A stretch of 36,768 nt of DNA, taken from NCBI GenBank assembly GCA_022684035.1, contig JAJHSB010000018.1:1-36768 (forward strand). Direction: 5' to 3'. Shown piece after piece: positions 11,024-31,920 of this stretch (the first letter of the stretch is position 1; each line of letters begins with the position of its first letter). This DNA comes from Candidatus Acetothermia bacterium (lineage in GTDB: Bacteria; Bipolaricaulota; Bipolaricaulia; UBA7950). A program made the translations under genes and the position numbers. The notes below the pieces were generated by a model, which saw only the letters and a program-made list of their open reading frames with translations, ran no database searches and had not been told where the DNA came from.

Positions 11024-13327
11024 ATGAACAAGCGCCTTATCTTTGCCGTCCTTGCCACCGGTTTCAGCGGTATGGTGGTACAACTCCTGCTGCTGCGGGA
11101 GTTCTTGGTGATCTTTCACGGCAATGACCTCGCGATAGGGATTATCTTTGCCAACTGGCTCGCCGTCGAAGCCTTCGGCGCATTTTTCATCGGGAAGAGG
11201 ATCGAGCAGTCGAGGAAAAGGATCGGATGGTTTATCGCTTTATCAGTCCTGTTCGTCCTTTCTGCGCCACTTGCTCTTTACCTTGTTCGGATAGTGCGAG
11301 ACTTGATCGGTGTCTTACCTGGCGTGGGGATGGGAGTATCCACCATTTTCTACTCCTCTCTTCTCATCCTCTTTTTGCCGAGCCTCCTGCACGGTGCGTT
11401 ATTTGTTTTTACCTGCAAGCTATGTGCCCAGTTTATTAGAGACCCTGAACATGATGCCCGGAAAGGCGCCTCCTCGGTCGGACAGGCATATGTGTGGGAA
11501 ACCATCGGCCATATTGCTGGAGCAGTGGTATTCACCTGTCTCCTGATTCTCCTGTTCCATTCATTTGCCATCGTCTTTGGGGTCGGTCTTTTGACCATCA
11601 TAGCATCGGTTGCCCTCGCCACTTTCCAGAGCAAGGCCGGGAAACGAAAAGCCCTCGCGGTGCTTATACCTGTTCTGGCAATATTCGTCTATCTGCTCGC
11701 TTCTGATGGGGATGAGCGGCTTCACTACCATGCGATTGCCCGTCAATGGCCGGACAAAGAGGTGATCCATCATCAACATTCACACTACGGTAACGTCGCA
11801 GTGATCTTCCGCAAAGGGGAATACACCTTCCTTACCGATGGTATCCCAACCTTCACTACTCCTACACCTGATATAGTGCGGGTGGAGGAATTCATCCATT
11901 TCCCGATGCTGGCACATCCCCGGCCGGAGAATGTGGCCATACTCGTCGGAGGAGCCGGTGGGAAGATCAGTGAAATTCTTAAACATCCTTTAGTAGAGCG
12001 GGTTGACTACACGGAGGTCAACCCTTTGCTCATTGACCTAGTGCGGAAATTTCCCACTCCGCTCACTGAGGCAGAACTCGGCGATCCACGCGTAAATACA
12101 CTGCATGTAGATGGGCGCCGCTTCCTTGAATTGACTCCGTATCAGTACGATCTGATCTTTGTCGGTATCTCCAATCCGGAAAACCTACAGGTGAACCGAC
12201 TCTTTACTGCCGAGTTCGCACGGATAGCCAAAGAGAGATTGCGGGAGGGTGGAATTCTAGCCGTCACCTTACCCGGCTCACTGACTTACTTAAGCCACGA
12301 GCTAAGGAACTTAAATGGAGTGATCATCAATACCCTAAAAAGCGTCTTTCCATATGTGCACATAATTCCGGGGTATCAAAATATTTTCCTATCTTCCACG
12401 ACGCCAGATGTTATCCTAATCAATGCCACCCTGCTCTATGAGAGACTAAGGAAACGTCAACTGGACCTCCGGCTCATCACCCGCCCTTATCTCGAAGTGA
12501 GGTTGGCTCCTCACTGGTTAAACTGGTTCTTAGAATCTATGCGCGGAGCAACACGAGAGATCAATCACGATTTTCGTCCCAAGGGCTTCTTTTACAGCCT
12601 TACCTATTGGAATGCGATGTTCTCCCCTTATTTAAGCGATTTTTTCAGGTGGCTGGAAGGTCTGGAGCTTGCGCTTTTTGCCATTGTGATTGCCGCGGTC
12701 ACCGCAATGCTACTTGCGCTCAGGTGGCGAATTACTCGCCTGCGCCGATTGACCATCCCTTATTCTATTGCCACCACCGGCTTTTCCGGCATGGCCTTCG
12801 ACCTGCTCCTCATCTTCGCCTTTCAAGTGCTTTTTGGATTCGTCTTTCACTGGATCGGACTGCTGCTGGCCGCGTTTATGGGTGGGGTTGCAGGCGGTGG
12901 CTTTGTGATGACTACTCTCTTACCGCGCATCAAGGACGACCGTGCCCTCTTTATCAAGCTGGAGATCGCGGTGGGACTATTTGCCGTCCTGTTGCCGCTC
13001 GTTATTCTCGTAGTGGCACCCTATTTAGGGAATATCGTCGTATTTGTCTTTGCACAACTGCTCTTTCTTCTGCTGGCATTTGCCGCCGGGGCACTCATCG
13101 GTCTTAAGTTTCCGCTGGCAAACAGAATGTATCTTGCCCTTTCTCCCAATTTAAGCCGCACAGCCGGACTCATCTATAGCGCCGATCTTGCAGGCGGATG
13201 GACTGGAGGGATCATCGCCGCAGTGGTGCTGCTGCCCGTTTTAGGACTGGTAGGAACCTCGTTAGTGATCGTGATGATCAAGGCAAGCAGCCTGATTATG
13301 CTGGCAACCTCATTCAGGGAGAAATAG
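11024..13327 (+). CDS. Multi-spanning membrane protein with a central spermidine-synthase-like (SAM-binding fold) domain
   Basis: Hydrophobic N- and C-terminal regions flank a domain with ILVGGAGGKISEILKH, DYTEVNP, HVDGRRFLE, NRLFTAEFARIAKERLREGGILAV. Start at MNKRL (11024); the ORF-track start is upstream. Confidence 0.8.
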   Translation: MNKRLIFAVLATGFSGMVVQLLLLREFLVIFHGNDLAIGIIFANWLAVEAFGAFFIGKRIEQSRKRIGWFIALSVLFVLSAPLALYLVRIVRDLIGVLPGVGMGVSTIFYSSLLILFLPSLLHGALFVFTCKLCAQFIRDPEHDARKGASSVGQAYVWETIGHIAGAVVFTCLLILLFHSFAIVFGVGLLTIIASVALATFQSKAGKRKALAVLIPVLAIFVYLLASDGDERLHYHAIARQWPDKEVIHHQHSHYGNVAVIFRKGEYTFLTDGIPTFTTPTPDIVRVEEFIHFPMLAHPRPENVAILVGGAGGKISEILKHPLVERVDYTEVNPLLIDLVRKFPTPLTEAELGDPRVNTLHVDGRRFLELTPYQYDLIFVGISNPENLQVNRLFTAEFARIAKERLREGGILAVTLPGSLTYLSHELRNLNGVIINTLKSVFPYVHIIPGYQNIFLSSTTPDVILINATLLYERLRKRQLDLRLITRPYLEVRLAPHWLNWFLESMRGATREINHDFRPKGFFYSLTYWNAMFSPYLSDFFRWLEGLELALFAIVIAAVTAMLLALRWRITRLRRLTIPYSIATTGFSGMAFDLLLIFAFQVLFGFVFHWIGLLLAAFMGGVAGGGFVMTTLLPRIKDDRALFIKLEIAVGLFAVLLPLVILVVAPYLGNIVVFVFAQLLFLLLAFAAGALIGLKFPLANRMYLALSPNLSRTAGLIYSADLAGGWTGGIIAAVVLLPVLGLVGTSLVIVMIKASSLIMLATSFREK

Positions 13328-15487
13328 ATGGAAGAGATGAATATCAGCAAAAGTAACGGACTCGCCTGGGTAGCATCGGCACAGCTTGCCGCCCTTTTGC
13401 TGGGGACAGCTCTCTGGCTGCTACTCGCGCTACTCATCCACCCACTGGCCTACGGACACTTAATCTGGCTGATATCGATTGCAACGATCCTCTCAACCCT
13501 CTGCACCTTCGGCTTGGGCAAAACCATAATCACCCATCTGCCGACAGAGAAAGATAGCAAGTTCTTGAGCAGCGCGGTGGCAGTCGTTATTCTTCTCAGT
13601 TTGATTGCTGGGACGATTCTCTCGATTGTATTGGAGCCGGCGATCGGTTTGCTCACTATTGGGCTATCGCTCTTCTCAATTACGGTACACCTATACCTGG
13701 CGAACCGGAAGTACGAAGGTTACCTCCGAGCGTGGGCCGGGGCACGGATTCTCGGCCTTCTCCTTCCTGTCCTGTTCTATCTCCTGTGGGGATCAATCAC
13801 TGGTATTCTGGTCGGACTGGCACTTGCCTATCTCTCCTTTGGGAGCAAGGCGCTGGCCCACCTTCGCACAAGGCCTGATTTTCGGAGAATCTTGAGGGTC
13901 CTCACATTTACGCTCGGTGTTCTGGGAACCGACCTCAACAGGGTCTTTATGAGTTTCCTCGACAAGATACTGATCGGAGAGCTCTTCGGAATGGAAGTGC
14001 TCGGATTATACCACTTCGCCTTTCGCATCTTTCTCCTCTTCGGAACACTACCTCAAATTATGCTCTTCTACCTCTTACCCGAGAAATCCGCTGGGAGGGA
14101 TACGGAAAAGATTGAACGGATCGCAGTTATCGCCTCTTTTGGCCTGGCTACGGCCACCTACCTTTTCGCACACTTCGTTGTTCCACTCGCCTTTCCGGCG
14201 TTTGCCGGGAGCGTGAATGCAATCCAAATCATGGGGCTGGCGATAATCCCGGCGACGCTGGTGGGAATAAAGACCTCCAGCCTTTATTCCGAAGGAAAGA
14301 CTAATGTCGTTTTTGGTTCCCACCTGCTTGCTCTGGGGGTCGGAATCATTGGAATAATCTTTCTGGGAAGGAGATTTGGGTTAGTTGGCATAGCGCTTAG
14401 TATGGTTGCGCTCCAATGGAGTTTAGCCGCCGCTTTATTCCTCTTCTCCAAACTTGCAGGGGAAACCCGCAAAATTGCGGCGGGCTCGATAGCGGCTCTC
14501 GTCCTGGTCGGTTTACTGCTGGGTTCTGTCGGCGCGCAACGGCCGCAGATTAAGATTCGTGGATATGCGCTGCGGGGAATGGTCATGGCAATGGGAACCG
14601 TAGTTAATATCACGGTGATTGACGAGGATACCCAGAGAGCAGAGGCCGCGATGCAGGATGCATTCAATGAGATATTCAGAATTGAGAGACTAATGTCAGC
14701 CACAGATGGGTATAGCGAAATTTATATTCTAAATCAGTCGAGGGGTGAGTGGGTGGATCTCTCCCCGGAGACCATCTATGTCCTTGAGCGAAGTCTGTAT
14801 TTCGCCAAGATCTCAGGTGGAGCCTTTGACCCAACGGTCAAACCCCTGGTAGATCTATGGATGGAAAAGGTGAAAACCTGGGGAAGGCTTCCGAGCACCA
14901 GCGAGCTGAGCGAGGCGCTTGCGCTGGTAAATTGGCGGAATCTGGAGGTTGATGTAAATAAGAGCAGGGCAAGATTTCTCAAAGAAGGGATGGCAATTAC
15001 TCTCGGCGGGATTGCGAAGGGTTACGCAGTCGATCGCGCAATTAAGGTACTCAAAGAAAGCGGTGTTAAGCGAGGACTGGTAGATATCGGGGGGGATATC
15101 AGAGGGTTTGGACCCAAAAGCTGGAGAATTGCGATTCAACATCCGCGCGATGAATACGAGTGGCTTGACGTGATCGATCTTAAAAACGCAGCAGTGGCCA
15201 CTTCCGGTGACTACAGGCGGTTCTTCTTGTTGGGGGAGAGAAGAGTTCATCATATCCTCAATCCGAAAACCGGTGAGCCGGCCGATAGAGTGATGAGCGT
15301 CACCATCATTGCCGCAAATTGCCTCGATGCCGACGCCCTCACTACACTCGTCTTTGTATTGGGCCCGGAGAAAGGAAAGGAACTGCTCAATTCCCTGGAG
15401 GTCGCCGGCTTGATTGTCGACTCTCACGGAGAGATTATCATCTCTGAGGCATGGGAATTGAAGCATCAACCAGCAAGCTCGCCTTAG
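13328..15487 (+). CDS. MOP/Wzx-like flippase domain fused to ApbE (FAD:protein FMN transferase)
   Basis: About 400 aa N-terminal polytopic region (PLAYGHLIWLISIATILSTLCTFGLGKTIITHLP...) followed by ApbE signatures: MGTVVNITV, GGAFDPTVKPLVDLW, TLGGIAKGYAVDRA, VDIGGDIRGFG, DADALTTLVFVLG. Confidence 0.85.
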   Translation: MEEMNISKSNGLAWVASAQLAALLLGTALWLLLALLIHPLAYGHLIWLISIATILSTLCTFGLGKTIITHLPTEKDSKFLSSAVAVVILLSLIAGTILSIVLEPAIGLLTIGLSLFSITVHLYLANRKYEGYLRAWAGARILGLLLPVLFYLLWGSITGILVGLALAYLSFGSKALAHLRTRPDFRRILRVLTFTLGVLGTDLNRVFMSFLDKILIGELFGMEVLGLYHFAFRIFLLFGTLPQIMLFYLLPEKSAGRDTEKIERIAVIASFGLATATYLFAHFVVPLAFPAFAGSVNAIQIMGLAIIPATLVGIKTSSLYSEGKTNVVFGSHLLALGVGIIGIIFLGRRFGLVGIALSMVALQWSLAAALFLFSKLAGETRKIAAGSIAALVLVGLLLGSVGAQRPQIKIRGYALRGMVMAMGTVVNITVIDEDTQRAEAAMQDAFNEIFRIERLMSATDGYSEIYILNQSRGEWVDLSPETIYVLERSLYFAKISGGAFDPTVKPLVDLWMEKVKTWGRLPSTSELSEALALVNWRNLEVDVNKSRARFLKEGMAITLGGIAKGYAVDRAIKVLKESGVKRGLVDIGGDIRGFGPKSWRIAIQHPRDEYEWLDVIDLKNAAVATSGDYRRFFLLGERRVHHILNPKTGEPADRVMSVTIIAANCLDADALTTLVFVLGPEKGKELLNSLEVAGLIVDSHGEIIISEAWELKHQPASSP

Positions 15488-22289: not shown

Positions 22290-22430
22290 TTTATTTGGAT
22301 ATTGTTGCTTGGAACTTTTGATTTCGACTTCTTTCCATTTTGCGCAAGAGTTCAGATGTTATGGCCTAACGATAAAGCAAAAAGTTCTCATAAAGTGAGT
22401 CTCTTGAAGCGAGGGCAACTCCTCGCTAAA

Positions 22431-22982
22431 ATGAGCTTTGATATGATAAGAAGCACAACGATTATTGCCCTCCGTTCAACGATTGAAAGACGCGCTGTCA
22501 TTGCCTGTGACGGGCAAGCTACGCTTGAAAACGTGGTAATTAAGAGTAAAACGAGAAAAGTGCACCGTCTTTATGATGGAACAATCATTGGCGGATTTGC
22601 AGGAGCTACTGCTGATTGTTTATCGTTATTGGATAGATTTGAAGAACACTTAAAAGAGTACGACGGACAATTAAGAAGAGCGGCAGTGGAATTATCAAAA
22701 GAATGGAGGATGGACCGTACGTTAAGATATTTAGAAGCGATTATAGTCTGTGCGGGAAAGGAAGGTCTTTTAATGCTCTCTGGCTCCGGAGATGTTTTGG
22801 AATCCGATGATAATATCTTCGGAATTGGGTCAGGAGGAGCTTATGCACTTGCAGCGGCGCATGCGATCATTTCTGTCACAGAACTTCCGATTATTGATGT
22901 TGCGAAAAAAGCATTGGAAATTGCCGGGAAGATCGATATTTATACGAATAATCACATCACTTTAGAAGAAGTTTCGTGGTAA
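22431..22982 (+). CDS. hslV: ATP-dependent protease peptidase subunit HslV
   Basis: STTIIALRS...DGQATLENVVIKSKTRKVHRLYDGTIIGGFAGATAD; GIGSGGAYALAAA; IYTNNHITLEE. Start at 22431 or 22443; the ORF-track extension to 22302 is unlikely. Confidence 0.93.
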   Translation: MSFDMIRSTTIIALRSTIERRAVIACDGQATLENVVIKSKTRKVHRLYDGTIIGGFAGATADCLSLLDRFEEHLKEYDGQLRRAAVELSKEWRMDRTLRYLEAIIVCAGKEGLLMLSGSGDVLESDDNIFGIGSGGAYALAAAHAIISVTELPIIDVAKKALEIAGKIDIYTNNHITLEEVSW

Positions 22983-22995
22983 GAAGGAAGGACTG

Positions 22996-24369
22996 ATGCA
23001 GATCATCGAGGTTAAAGAGAGAACAATATCTGGTTTGACACCACGGCGAATTGTCGCTGAGCTCGATAAGTATATAGTCGGACAAAGAGAGGCAAAACGA
23101 CAAGTCGCAATCGCACTCCGCAATCGAATGCGAAGGCAGCTAATAACCGGCGAAATTCGTACTGAGATAAAACCGAAGAACATCTTAATGATTGGGCCAA
23201 CCGGAGTGGGAAAAACAGAGATATCGCGCCGCCTGGCAAAACTAACTACCTCTCCTTTTTTAAAAATAGAGGCGACTAAATTTACCGAAGTCGGATATGT
23301 CGGTCGGGATGTTGAGTCGATGATTCGAGATCTGGTCGATATTGCGATTGACATTGTCTATCAAGAGGTGATCCTTCAGAAAGAGGATGAGATATCCGAG
23401 ATGGTGGAAGAGCGGCTTCTCGATGCTCTGCTGCCGATTGATAAAGATAACACAGAAGAAAATGCAGACCGTAATGAACGGATACAGCGGACACGAGCTA
23501 AGCTGGAGCGTAAACTGAGCCAAGGAGATTTAGATGAACGATACATCGAAATCAAGGTAGAGGCACAGATCATTCCCCAGTTTGAGGTCTTCAGTCAAGA
23601 AGGAATGGACCAAATTGGAATAGATATTACTGATATGCTTTCCGGAATAATCCCTCCTTCCACCCGTAAGCGGCGTGTAAAGATTAAAGAGGCGCGGCCA
23701 ATTCTCTTCGACCAACTGGTCAATGAGACGATCAATATGGAGGAGATCCGGCAGAAAGGGATTAAGTTGGCGGAAGAGACAGGGATCATATTCCTTGACG
23801 AGATCGATAAAATTGCTGCCGGCGGCCGAGAAGAAAGGGGAGGACCGAGTGTTTCGCGGCAAGGAGTGCAACGCGATCTATTACCTCTCCTTGAGGGAAC
23901 GACGGTACGAACGCGCTATGGAAATGTGAACACGGAGAATATTCTCTTTATCGCTGCCGGGGCGTTCACCATGTCCAAGCCGTCTGATCTGATCCCTGAA
24001 CTACAGGGACGCCTTCCGATCCGGGTGGAATTAGAGGATCTCACAGCAGAGGATTTTATGACTATTCTCACTCATCCTAAAGATGCATTGGTGAAACAAT
24101 ATAAAGCACTTCTCGCGGTAGAAGGAGTGGAACTTGAGTTCGACGAAGAAGCGATTGCCGAGATAGCGCAGATCGCGTATCGTCTCAATCAGACGACAGA
24201 GAATATCGGAGCACGACGTCTTGCTACGGTGATGGAGAAACTGGTAGAGGAGATTTCATTCGACGCGGATAGAAGGAGAGGAGAAAGAATAGAAATCGAC
24301 AGTGAGTACGTAAGGAGTCGTCTGGAAGGAATCGTTGAAGATCCAGATCTGTCGCGATATATCCTATAG
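22996..24369 (+). CDS. hslU: ATP-dependent protease ATPase subunit HslU
   Basis: LTPRRIVAELDKYIVGQREAKRQVAIALRNRMRR; GPTGVGKTEISRRLAKL; FLDEIDKIA; C-terminal DLSRYIL. Confidence 0.98.
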   Translation: MQIIEVKERTISGLTPRRIVAELDKYIVGQREAKRQVAIALRNRMRRQLITGEIRTEIKPKNILMIGPTGVGKTEISRRLAKLTTSPFLKIEATKFTEVGYVGRDVESMIRDLVDIAIDIVYQEVILQKEDEISEMVEERLLDALLPIDKDNTEENADRNERIQRTRAKLERKLSQGDLDERYIEIKVEAQIIPQFEVFSQEGMDQIGIDITDMLSGIIPPSTRKRRVKIKEARPILFDQLVNETINMEEIRQKGIKLAEETGIIFLDEIDKIAAGGREERGGPSVSRQGVQRDLLPLLEGTTVRTRYGNVNTENILFIAAGAFTMSKPSDLIPELQGRLPIRVELEDLTAEDFMTILTHPKDALVKQYKALLAVEGVELEFDEEAIAEIAQIAYRLNQTTENIGARRLATVMEKLVEEISFDADRRRGERIEIDSEYVRSRLEGIVEDPDLSRYIL

Positions 24370-28052: not shown

Positions 28053-29495
28053 GTGCGAGATTTTACTGAACGAGCGCTAAATCGAGCCTGTGCAGCAGGC
28101 GCAACATTTGCTGAGATACGGATCGTAGACCGGAGATCAGAGAGCATAGAGATCAAGAATGGATCGACGGAAGCGATCAGTAACAGGACCAGTTATGGTT
28201 GGGGCGTACGGGTAATTGTTGACGGAGGATGGGGGTTTGCCTCCAGTTTTCGCATCGAAAAGGGTGAGATAGCCCGGGTCGTTGATTTGGCAATAGAGAT
28301 AGCCCGTGCAAGCGCAATGAATAAAAAAGAAGATGTCAGGTTAAGCCCGAGCAAGAAGATTCAACAGAACTATCGTACTCCGCTTGTGATTGATCCATTC
28401 ACTGTTCCTCTCGCGCAGCGGATCGATCTTCTTCTTGCCGCCGAGGGCCGCTTACGTCAGGAGAAGGCAGTCAAGATATCACAAGCATTTATGACTCTCT
28501 TTGGCGAGAAAAAGTTCTTCGCCAATAGCGAGGGGAGTTACATCGAGCAAGAGATAATCGAATGTGGAGCAGGGATAACTGCTACAGCGGTTAAAGATGG
28601 TGAGGTTCAGGTGCGTTCCTATCCCAACTCGTTCCGCGGTAACTTTGCCACCAGTGGGTATGAGTTTATCGAGTCGCTCAACCTAGCCGAGCACGCTCCT
28701 CGTGTTGCCAGCGAGGCAGTGGCACTTCTCTCTGCGCCGCAATGTCCATCCAAAGAGACGACATTGATCATCGATGGATCGCAGTTGGCACTCCAGGTTC
28801 ATGAATCGTGCGGTCACCCAATTGAACTCGACCGTGTCTTCGGCAGTGAAGCGAGTTATGCTGGTACGAGCTTTCTCACCACAGAAAAACTCGGTAAATT
28901 CCGTTATGGCTCGGAGATTGTAAATATCATTGCCGATGCTACTATCCCCGGCGGATTAGGGACGTTCGGATTTGATGATGAAGGCGTGCCGGCACAACGG
29001 ACAAAAATTATCGATAACGGAATCTTTGTCGGCTATCTTACATCGCGTGAAACAGCAGTTAAGTTAGGACAGTTGAGTAATGGGACGATGCGTGCCGATG
29101 GCTGGAACAATATCCCACTGATTCGCATGACAAATATCAATCTCCAACCAGGAGAATGGAGATTCGATGATCTGATTGCCTCCACCGAAGACGGACTTTA
29201 TGTTGAAACAAACCGTAGTTGGTCGATCGATGATCGTAGGCTCAACTTTCAATTCGGTACCGAAATCGGATGGGAGATTAAAAACGGTAAGCTGGGGCAG
29301 ATGTTTAAAAACCCAACCTATACCGGAATTACCCCCCAGTTTTGGGGTAATTGTGATGCTATTTGTAATGATGACCATTGGCAGATGTGGGGAACGCCCA
29401 ATTGCGGTAAAGGAGAACCAGGACAGGCAGCCCATGTGGGACATGGAACCGCACCGGCTCGGTTTAGAAATGTGCGCGTAGGAGTGATGAAATGA
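28053..29495 (+). CDS. tldD: TldD metalloprotease
   Basis: HESCGHPIELDRVFG (HExxxH); GTFGFDDEGVPAQRTKIIDNGI; GTG start after gaggagg. Confidence 0.95.
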   Translation: MRDFTERALNRACAAGATFAEIRIVDRRSESIEIKNGSTEAISNRTSYGWGVRVIVDGGWGFASSFRIEKGEIARVVDLAIEIARASAMNKKEDVRLSPSKKIQQNYRTPLVIDPFTVPLAQRIDLLLAAEGRLRQEKAVKISQAFMTLFGEKKFFANSEGSYIEQEIIECGAGITATAVKDGEVQVRSYPNSFRGNFATSGYEFIESLNLAEHAPRVASEAVALLSAPQCPSKETTLIIDGSQLALQVHESCGHPIELDRVFGSEASYAGTSFLTTEKLGKFRYGSEIVNIIADATIPGGLGTFGFDDEGVPAQRTKIIDNGIFVGYLTSRETAVKLGQLSNGTMRADGWNNIPLIRMTNINLQPGEWRFDDLIASTEDGLYVETNRSWSIDDRRLNFQFGTEIGWEIKNGKLGQMFKNPTYTGITPQFWGNCDAICNDDHWQMWGTPNCGKGEPGQAAHVGHGTAPARFRNVRVGVMK

Positions 29496-30829
29496 CGAAG
29501 ATCAACGAAATGCTCACTGAAATTTTGCAGTTGTCTCGTGCGGAGCAGACAGAGATAGTCTATATGGGAACGGATTCTGCTCTCACCAGATTTACCAATA
29601 ATTATATTCATCAGAACGTAGCCGAGAAGGATGGTACCGTCTCAATTCGCGTTGTGATAGGGAAGAAGATCGGCACAGCTGCTACTAATCAACTGGATAA
29701 AGAGTCACTGCGTAACACAGTGGAAAAAGCAGTAGAGATTGCCGCCACCCAACGTGACGATCCATATTTTCAGTCTCTTCCCATGCCGACACCGCTCCAA
29801 AAGATCAAGACGTATGTTAGTGCGACCGCAAAATTTACCCCGCAACAGCGGGCACAAACTGTAGCAACGATCGTGAAATTAGCCGAACAAAGTAATCTTA
29901 TTGCCTCTGGTGCAATCTCCACTAACACAATCGAGACCGCAGTCGTTAATTCGCTGGGAGTAAACGCCTATCAACGGGGGACCAGTGCTGATCTTAATTT
30001 AATTATCAGCAGCAATGATGGGGCATCTGGCTATGCTACTTACTTAACGCGCGATGTCACTCAGATCGATATCGATGCGTTAGCTAAGCAGGCGATTGAC
30101 AAATGCTTACAAGGAAAAGATCCGATTATGATTGAGCCAGGAGAGTATGTAACGATCCTTGAGCCCGATGCTGTAGGAACATTTGTCTCTTTCCTCGGAT
30201 ACCTCGGAATGGGAGCGCTGGCATTACAAGAGGGACGTAGTTTTATGACCAATAAGCTGGGCCAACAGATTACCGGTAGTAATATCACTATCTGGGACGA
30301 TGGGCTTAATCCCCAAGGGATGCCGATACCATTTGATTTCGAAGGAGTAGCGAAAAAGAAGGTGAGCTTGATCGAAAAAGGAGTAGCCAAAGGGGTCGTC
30401 TATGACTCTTATACTGCCGGGCGTCAGCCGGGAAAAGAATCGACCGGCCATGCTCTCCCTGCTCCGAATAGTTCCGGCCCCATGCCGCTCCATCTCTTTA
30501 TGAAAGAAGGGGATTCTTCTTTAGCAGAGATGATCGCTTCCACAGAGCGAGGGATCTATGTCACCCGTTTCCACTACACCAATCCAGTTGAACCGATGAG
30601 CACCACGATAACTGGCCTGACGCGCGATGGAACGTTCTTGATCGAAGAGGGAAGGATTACCTCTCCTCTTGTAACGTTGCGGTTTACCGACAGTATCTTA
30701 ACAGTTCTTTCGCATGTCTCCCAGATATCGAAAGAGACGGTGCTCGTAGGAAGCTACTTCGGCGGCAGCCGCGTGCCGGCAATAAAGACTGATCGATTAA
30801 GATTCAGCGGCTCAGCAGCGAAAGCGTAG
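29492..30829 (+). CDS. pmbA: TldE/PmbA partner protein
   Basis: PmbA/TldE-like organisation with NPVEPMSTTITGLTRDGTFLIEEGRI; 4-nt overlap with tldD. Confidence 0.92.
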   Translation: MTKINEMLTEILQLSRAEQTEIVYMGTDSALTRFTNNYIHQNVAEKDGTVSIRVVIGKKIGTAATNQLDKESLRNTVEKAVEIAATQRDDPYFQSLPMPTPLQKIKTYVSATAKFTPQQRAQTVATIVKLAEQSNLIASGAISTNTIETAVVNSLGVNAYQRGTSADLNLIISSNDGASGYATYLTRDVTQIDIDALAKQAIDKCLQGKDPIMIEPGEYVTILEPDAVGTFVSFLGYLGMGALALQEGRSFMTNKLGQQITGSNITIWDDGLNPQGMPIPFDFEGVAKKKVSLIEKGVAKGVVYDSYTAGRQPGKESTGHALPAPNSSGPMPLHLFMKEGDSSLAEMIASTERGIYVTRFHYTNPVEPMSTTITGLTRDGTFLIEEGRITSPLVTLRFTDSILTVLSHVSQISKETVLVGSYFGGSRVPAIKTDRLRFSGSAAKA

Positions 30830-30837
30830 TAAAGAGA

Positions 30838-31920
30838 GTGGAAAAACGAAACCGAGCCCGCGAGTTGGGAGTCACAATTGGCACGCTTACACCGGGCCAA
30901 ATGAATTCCATTACTGATGTACCAGGGGTAGAGGTAGGACATCTTTCGCTTATTTGCGGTGAAGGGAAGTTAGTTCCAGGGAAAGGGCCGGTGCGAACCG
31001 GTGTCACAGTGATCAAGCCTCATCCAGGAAACCTTTTCTTAAATAAAGTTCCTGCTGCTGTCCATGTGATCAATGGAGTCGGCAAAACAATCGGATTGGT
31101 CCAGATCGCCGAATTAGGGGTGATCGAAACGCCGATCGTCCTTACTAATACGTTAAGTGCTGGACTGGCGGCAGATGGCCTTATCGAATATATGTTGAAC
31201 CAGAATCCCGACATCGGAGTGACGACCGGTTCGGTAAACCCGGTAGTGGGAGAATGTAACGATAGTTTTTTGAATGATCTGCGGGGCCGCCATGTGCGAC
31301 AGGAGCATGTCCTTGCTGCGCTGGCACAGACTTCTTCCGGGCCGGTGGAAGAGGGATCGGTCGGCGCCGGTGTAGGGATGTCGGCCTTCGGCTATAAAGG
31401 AGGGATCGGTACATCATCGCGGATAGTGAGTGGCTATACCATCGGCGTGCTTGTCCTCGTTAACTGCGGACGGAAAGAGGAACTGACGATCGCCGGCTCG
31501 CCAGTGGGCAGTCTCCTTTCCAAGAGAACTGCAACGATGGATAATTACGGCTCGATCATGATTATTGTTGCTACTGACGCACCGCTCTCAGCACGCCAAT
31601 TAGGGCGATTGGCCAAACGTGCGACACACGGGTTGGCACGGACCGGTGCTAATTCATCCCATGGCAGCGGAGATATTGTTATTGCATTTTCCACTGCCGA
31701 GCCTATCCCTCATTACTCTGCCAGTTCAACGCTGAGATTGACCAGATTACACGAATCCGGCCCAGATATATCCAGACTCTTCTGCGGTGTGGCCGAGGCG
31801 ACAGAAGAGGCGATCGTAAATGGATTATTTACCGCGCAGACAGTCATTGGGCGTGATGGGAATCGACGCGTGGGATTACCGATCAGTGAGACTTTAGCAT
31901 TGATTACGATCAAAACATAA
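30838..31920 (+). CDS. P1/S58 family aminopeptidase, DmpA-like
   Basis: NSITDVPGVEVGHLSL; NKVPAAVHVINGVGKTIGLVQIAELG; EEGSVGAGVGMSAFGYKGGIGTSSRI; GANSSHGSGDIVIAFS. Confidence 0.92.
   Translation: MEKRNRARELGVTIGTLTPGQMNSITDVPGVEVGHLSLICGEGKLVPGKGPVRTGVTVIKPHPGNLFLNKVPAAVHVINGVGKTIGLVQIAELGVIETPIVLTNTLSAGLAADGLIEYMLNQNPDIGVTTGSVNPVVGECNDSFLNDLRGRHVRQEHVLAALAQTSSGPVEEGSVGAGVGMSAFGYKGGIGTSSRIVSGYTIGVLVLVNCGRKEELTIAGSPVGSLLSKRTATMDNYGSIMIIVATDAPLSARQLGRLAKRATHGLARTGANSSHGSGDIVIAFSTAEPIPHYSASSTLRLTRLHESGPDISRLFCGVAEATEEAIVNGLFTAQTVIGRDGNRRVGLPISETLALITIKT

Follow-up and report, generated by a model that had tools for sequence, protein, structure and literature searches.

ApbE enzymes act outside the membrane on FAD that is made inside the cell, and the MATE transporters form part of the MOP superfamily. 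The literature describes the supply of FAD to ApbE as an open issue; the flavin exporters known so far, Bfe of Shewanella and YeeO of E. coli, are MATE proteins (PMC5655446). Known ApbEs are lipoproteins, secreted proteins or proteins with a single anchor. Some occur as natural fusions: in ApbE::DUF2271 the fusion revealed the functional partner of the enzyme, which is an acceptor (PMC8238504), and in the kinetoplastid fumarate reductase the enzyme is likewise joined to its acceptor (PMC12052999). Flavin transport across the membrane is coupled to an ApbE-type enzyme, FmnB, in Listeria, where separate proteins and an ECF-type transporter are used (PMC9973259).

The locus described here lies in a stretch of 36,768 nucleotides of a Candidatus Acetothermia bacterium (hereafter the window), and encodes on the + strand, at 13328..15487, a 719-aa protein in which a 12-helix transporter stands in front of an ApbE. 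The gene is recognized by its open frame, by Pfam and by a full-length homologue in another genome (see below). A reading of this DNA made from its letters (the sequence-only reading) had claimed a single unbroken ORF of 719 codons, and translation of 13328-15487 indeed meets no stop. The architecture that it proposed, a MOP flippase and an ApbE in one protein, is also right according to Pfam, a class-specific MOP HMM and fold matches. Both parts belong to known families; what appears to be new is their combination. The fusion resembles ApbE, FmnB and Ftp (PF02424) in having the whole catalytic domain, the conserved motifs, a predicted location outside the membrane, and likely FMN_bind and Rnf substrates that its own genome encodes, but differs from them by the transporter in front. 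It also differs from the natural ApbE fusions mentioned above, and from an ApbE::FMN_bind fusion that we found in a related genome (G020), in that the partner is a membrane transporter and not an acceptor. The MOP::ApbE architecture was not found in the literature searched or in plasmid records, where none of 624 matching records covers 80% of the fusion query.

The MOP half comprises residues 1-378 (13328..14461, + strand), and its helices 1-12 span approximately residues 8-377 according to hydropathy and the models. The polytopic MOP part was thus correctly anticipated in the sequence-only reading, but its length, given as ~400 aa, was not, since residues 381-402 are the anchor helix of ApbE itself. 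In Pfam, Polysacc_synt_3 gives a short, weak and partial match to residues 152-237 (26.8 bits vs. a cut-off of 23). This match is backed by the agreement of three further results, namely: an HMM built from 19 further class MOP proteins, which matches the fusion ORF with an E value of 9.7e-12; a structural model of the N-half; and the fold matches of that model. The N-half was modelled separately, as flippases had spread onto the C-half in the alignment of the first full-length model. Built on a 20-sequence alignment, the model has a pLDDT of 84.7 and a pTM of 0.84, and shows an additional helix after the 12 of the MOP fold. In the PDB, it comes nearest to WzxE, with an E value of 1.2e-9 and a TM-score of at most 0.74, and to MurJ, with a TM-score of at most 0.75, while MATE proteins rank next; the WzxE and MurJ matches range in E value from 1e-9 to 1e-6, with the best TM-score of each at 0.73-0.75. 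A PDB sequence search with the N-half gave no match, and a Pfam search of the fusion gave no match to MatE (PF01554).

In sequence, the MOP half is far removed from ordinary flippases, its best blastp matches being ~20% identical. It shares the 12-helix fold with the lipid-linked-oligosaccharide flippases WzxE and MurJ, which are its best structural matches, but is ~15% identical to them and is joined to ApbE, and a look at its surroundings in the window identified no genes for glycan biosynthesis. With Bfe and YeeO it has in common the superfamily and the proposed cargo, FAD, whereas it is non-MATE-like by Pfam and nearer to WzxE and MurJ in fold, and its transport activity is putative. Charged residues are conserved in TM7, where the segment DLNRVFMSFLDKILIG (residues 202-217; 13931..13978, + strand), with D202, R205, D212 and K213, is kept in the homologue from AH-958-E22; in helix 10, the two proteins share 97% identity.

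The ApbE half matches the Pfam domain over residues 422-692 (14591..15403, + strand; 2.2e-87, 293 bits vs. a cut-off of 25.6), which covers profile positions 1-262 of 266. The FAD- and metal-site motifs GGxFDxT, GGIAKGYxxD, HxIxPxTG and DAxxTT are all present and align with those of TM1553, FmnB and E. coli ApbE. In translation and alignment, GGAFDPTVKPLVDLW occupies residues 497-511 (14816..14860, + strand), LGGIAKGYAVDRA residues 559-571 (15002..15040, + strand), and the metal-site Asp/Thr motif DADALTT residues 667-673 (15326..15346, + strand), while HHILNPKTG at residues 641-649 (15248..15274, + strand) corresponds in the alignment to the histidine segment (HxIxPxTG) conserved in solved ApbEs. 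The four motifs quoted in the sequence-only reading, VDIGGDIRGFG included, can all be found in the translation. The pLDDT of this half is mostly 95-98, and its fold matches TM1553, FmnB, Ftp and other ApbE structures. Judged by its domain and motifs, the ApbE half is a complete FMN transferase.

Between the two halves lies a 13th transmembrane helix (TM13; residues 381-402; 14468..14533, + strand), identified by hydropathy, alignment and the model. In the alignment, it falls on the single N-terminal anchor helix of the class's stand-alone ApbEs; thus, the fusion consists of a complete MOP protein followed by a complete anchored ApbE. The predicted cytosolic loops hold positive charges and nearly all of the outer loops hold none, the exception being the outer loop at residues 346-354 with two arginines. 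Based on the 13 helices and this positive-inside distribution, the ApbE domain is predicted to be outside the membrane. The earlier suggestion that the flippase region might be a pure membrane anchor is weakened by these results, since ApbE brings its own anchor, which makes a 12-helix one superfluous, and since the two halves show about equal conservation.

The same fusion is found in the Dehalococcoidia genome AH-958-E22 (L026), with 81% identity over residues 1-714. There, its neighbourhood differs from that of the window, with a cobyric acid synthase upstream and a cysteine synthase downstream as read from the translations. In AH-958-J08, the C-terminal 196 residues of the fusion lie at one contig end and the first 286 residues at the end of another contig, which is consistent with a third copy split by assembly. 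The AH-958 records look like single-cell genomes, judging from their naming. In a codon comparison of the window with AH-958-E22, dN/dS is 0.116/0.537 (~0.22) for the MOP half (residues 1-382), 0.207/0.597 (~0.35) for the junction (residues 383-421) and 0.103/0.613 (~0.17) for the ApbE half (residues 422-719), by which measure all three are under purifying selection and held in frame.

These results bear on whether two adjacent genes were falsely joined by assembly or annotation. The unbroken fusion recurs in an independent assembly and in different surroundings, and selection acts in frame across the junction; we therefore reject such an artefact, whose probability we consider practically nil. 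A lost stop or frameshift through misassembly is very unlikely for the reason that AH-958-E22 holds the same unbroken fusion. The sequence-only reading had itself allowed for an assembly error at the junction, for a lack of homologues sharing the fusion and for an N-terminal region unlike MOP proteins. Of the first there is no sign, while the homologue exists and the N-half has the MOP fold.

Within the class, 26 of the 100 searchable genomes carry ApbE, and among these 100 the fusion occurs only in the window's genome; it should be noted that the phylum-level set consists of the identical 100 genomes. None of the other class ApbEs seen is fused to a transporter. A MOP gene adjoining the stand-alone ApbE was also looked for, and none was present within ~8 kb in 20 related neighbourhoods. 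G001, the genus neighbour, with a completeness of 81%, encodes RnfG but gave no ApbE match. The peptide patterns of our wide genome scan came from one query and pick up only close relatives, and so more distant fusions may exist elsewhere. An origin of the fused ApbE from the rnf-linked apbE of the order was considered and is unsupported, as the fused domain falls outside that clade in the tree, although its exact placement is unsure because long branches meet.

No ApbE other than the fusion was found in the window's genome, AH-958-E22 or AH-958-J08, and all three genomes encode an RnfG-type protein and a second FMN_bind protein. The latter carries the canonical TGAT motif. In the window's genome, acceptors with an [S/T]GA[S/T]-like motif are thus represented by the Rnf operon, located on contig C40 and including RnfG, and by the TGAT-bearing FMN_bind protein, the genome's own RnfG having the variant TAAT. 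Stand-alone ApbE adjoins rnf genes in 11 of the 20 related neighbourhoods, which indicates that service to Rnf is the usual role of ApbE in this class. From this gene content, RnfG and the second FMN_bind protein are likely substrates of the fusion. In G001 and the genomes with the fusion (L032, L067, L068 and L069), RnfG has the motif ITAATIS, vs. ITGATIS in most relatives. As a separate observation, contigs C17 and C47 of G000 (start of L033 and end of L034) share near-identical FMN_bind 3′ ends and then continue into different DNA, reflecting either a duplication or an assembly fork.

Upstream of the fusion, its operon partner encodes a polytopic spermidine-synthase-like protein with a Spermine_synth domain by Pfam (11024..13327, + strand), whose TAG stop directly abuts the ATG of the fusion. 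The junction is identical in AH-958-J08, where this gene pair closes a cluster headed by an FMN_bind gene. The cluster spans L127:3-10393 and L140:860-12640 in AH-958-E22 and AH-958-J08, and encodes, in addition to the TGAT-bearing FMN_bind protein at its start and the spermidine-synthase-like protein at its end, a DsbD_2 membrane protein, a SagB-type lipoprotein of the nitroreductase family and at least four radical-SAM proteins. The AH-958-E22 radical-SAM proteins tested score above the TIGR04337 AmmeMemoRadiSam cut-off and have CxxxCxxC together with an N-terminal membrane anchor or lipobox. In this genome, the fusion is on a different contig from the cluster. In G020, a cluster of the same kind is headed by the 531-aa ApbE::FMN_bind fusion (L106:8309-9901, - strand). 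Being joined to ApbE marks this homologous FMN_bind domain as a likely substrate; and as the cluster's ApbE is joined to an acceptor in G020 and to a transporter elsewhere, ApbE has been tied to the cluster repeatedly. The composition of the cluster suggests radical-SAM chemistry outside the cytosol. DsbD-linked flavinylation clusters are described in the eLife flavinylation survey, the text of which, when searched, does not refer to radical SAM, spermidine synthase or nitroreductase. The membrane-anchored radical-SAM cluster is a stranger observation than the fusion.

Our preferred reading, held tentatively and at somewhat less than an even chance, is that the MOP half exports FAD for the tethered ApbE. 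The sequence-only reading had raised a coupling of FAD presentation to flavinylation, which may well exist and fits the FAD supply question. The 12-helix transporter would sit in the membrane, with TM13 anchoring the ApbE domain outside; the MOP half would move FAD out of the cytosol and pass it to ApbE, which would consume the delivered FAD on the outer side of the membrane. As the sole ApbE found, the fusion would then put FMN on the Rnf subunits and on the FMN_bind protein of the cluster, to go by the gene content. FAD export is supported by the fact that FAD supply is an open issue and that Bfe and YeeO belong to MATE, another MOP family (PMC5655446). Purifying selection on both halves, the TAG-ATG junction kept in AH-958-J08 and the anchor supplied by TM13 count in favour of the reading as a whole. 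Against FAD export count the resemblance of the MOP half to WzxE and MurJ and not to the MATE branch of YeeO and Bfe, and the unfused state of the other class ApbEs, with a nearby MOP gene in none of 20 cases. The TAAT of RnfG in the genomes that carry the fusion, in place of TGAT, also speaks against the reading. The presence or absence of a MATE exporter is uninformative as a test of the FAD route, as MatE occurs in 98 of the 100 class genomes, the window's included; with MATE proteins nearly universal, FAD could leave the cell by another route. A more extended version, which makes the fusion a cofactor-delivery unit for an extracytosolic electron-transfer and radical-SAM pathway, exporting FAD and fixing FMN onto the cluster's FMN_bind protein, is a long shot.

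The MOP half may instead be a working flippase or exporter of cargo other than FAD, either a lipid-linked glycan or a cofactor such as SAM for the membrane-anchored enzymes of the cluster, with tethering serving to co-localize both activities in the envelope. The nearest folds, WzxE and MurJ, favour this, as do the operon neighbours in AH-958-J08 (membrane-anchored radical-SAM, SagB-like and spermidine-synthase-like proteins), which may need cofactors outside. However, the surroundings of the fusion in the window lack identified glycan genes, three other Polysacc_synt_3 proteins in the window's genome could serve glycans, and we know of no reason for joining a glycan flippase to ApbE; we regard a cargo other than FAD as rather unlikely, if far from negligible. 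That the MOP half has lost transport and became a scaffold placing ApbE beside its substrates (Rnf, the FMN_bind protein and DsbD-like partners) would agree with its divergence and with the occurrence of class ApbE without a linked MOP gene. The similar dN/dS of the two halves, the charged and polar residues retained in the transmembrane segments and the anchoring already provided by TM13 argue against a scaffold, which we consider somewhat less likely still. Finally, signal peptidase might cut after TM13 and free two proteins, a possibility that conflicts with none of the cargoes. In both homologues, TM13 is followed by V/I-G-A and then Q (VGA|Q in the window), which resembles a cleavage site, but the corresponding helix in stand-alone ApbEs of this class has the appearance of an uncleaved anchor and the hydrophobic stretch of ~18 residues is more like a helix than a signal. 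We give such processing a slim chance.

If FAD export is correct, the flippase-type MOP proteins would extend to nucleotide cofactors. A natural covalent MOP::ApbE fusion points to a specific transporter class for the FAD supply question (PMC5655446), and a single protein allows transport and FMN transfer to be assayed jointly and separately, making this question directly testable. The linked cluster, in turn, suggests extracytosolic chemistry that is undescribed in the literature searched.

Two other features of the window were noted. A proteasome-family subunit gene followed by a gene for an AAA ATPase of the Cdc48 subfamily (22302-24369) is probably an HslVU pair, and two PmbA/TldD metallopeptidase genes are followed by a gene for a peptidase of family S58 (28053-31920).
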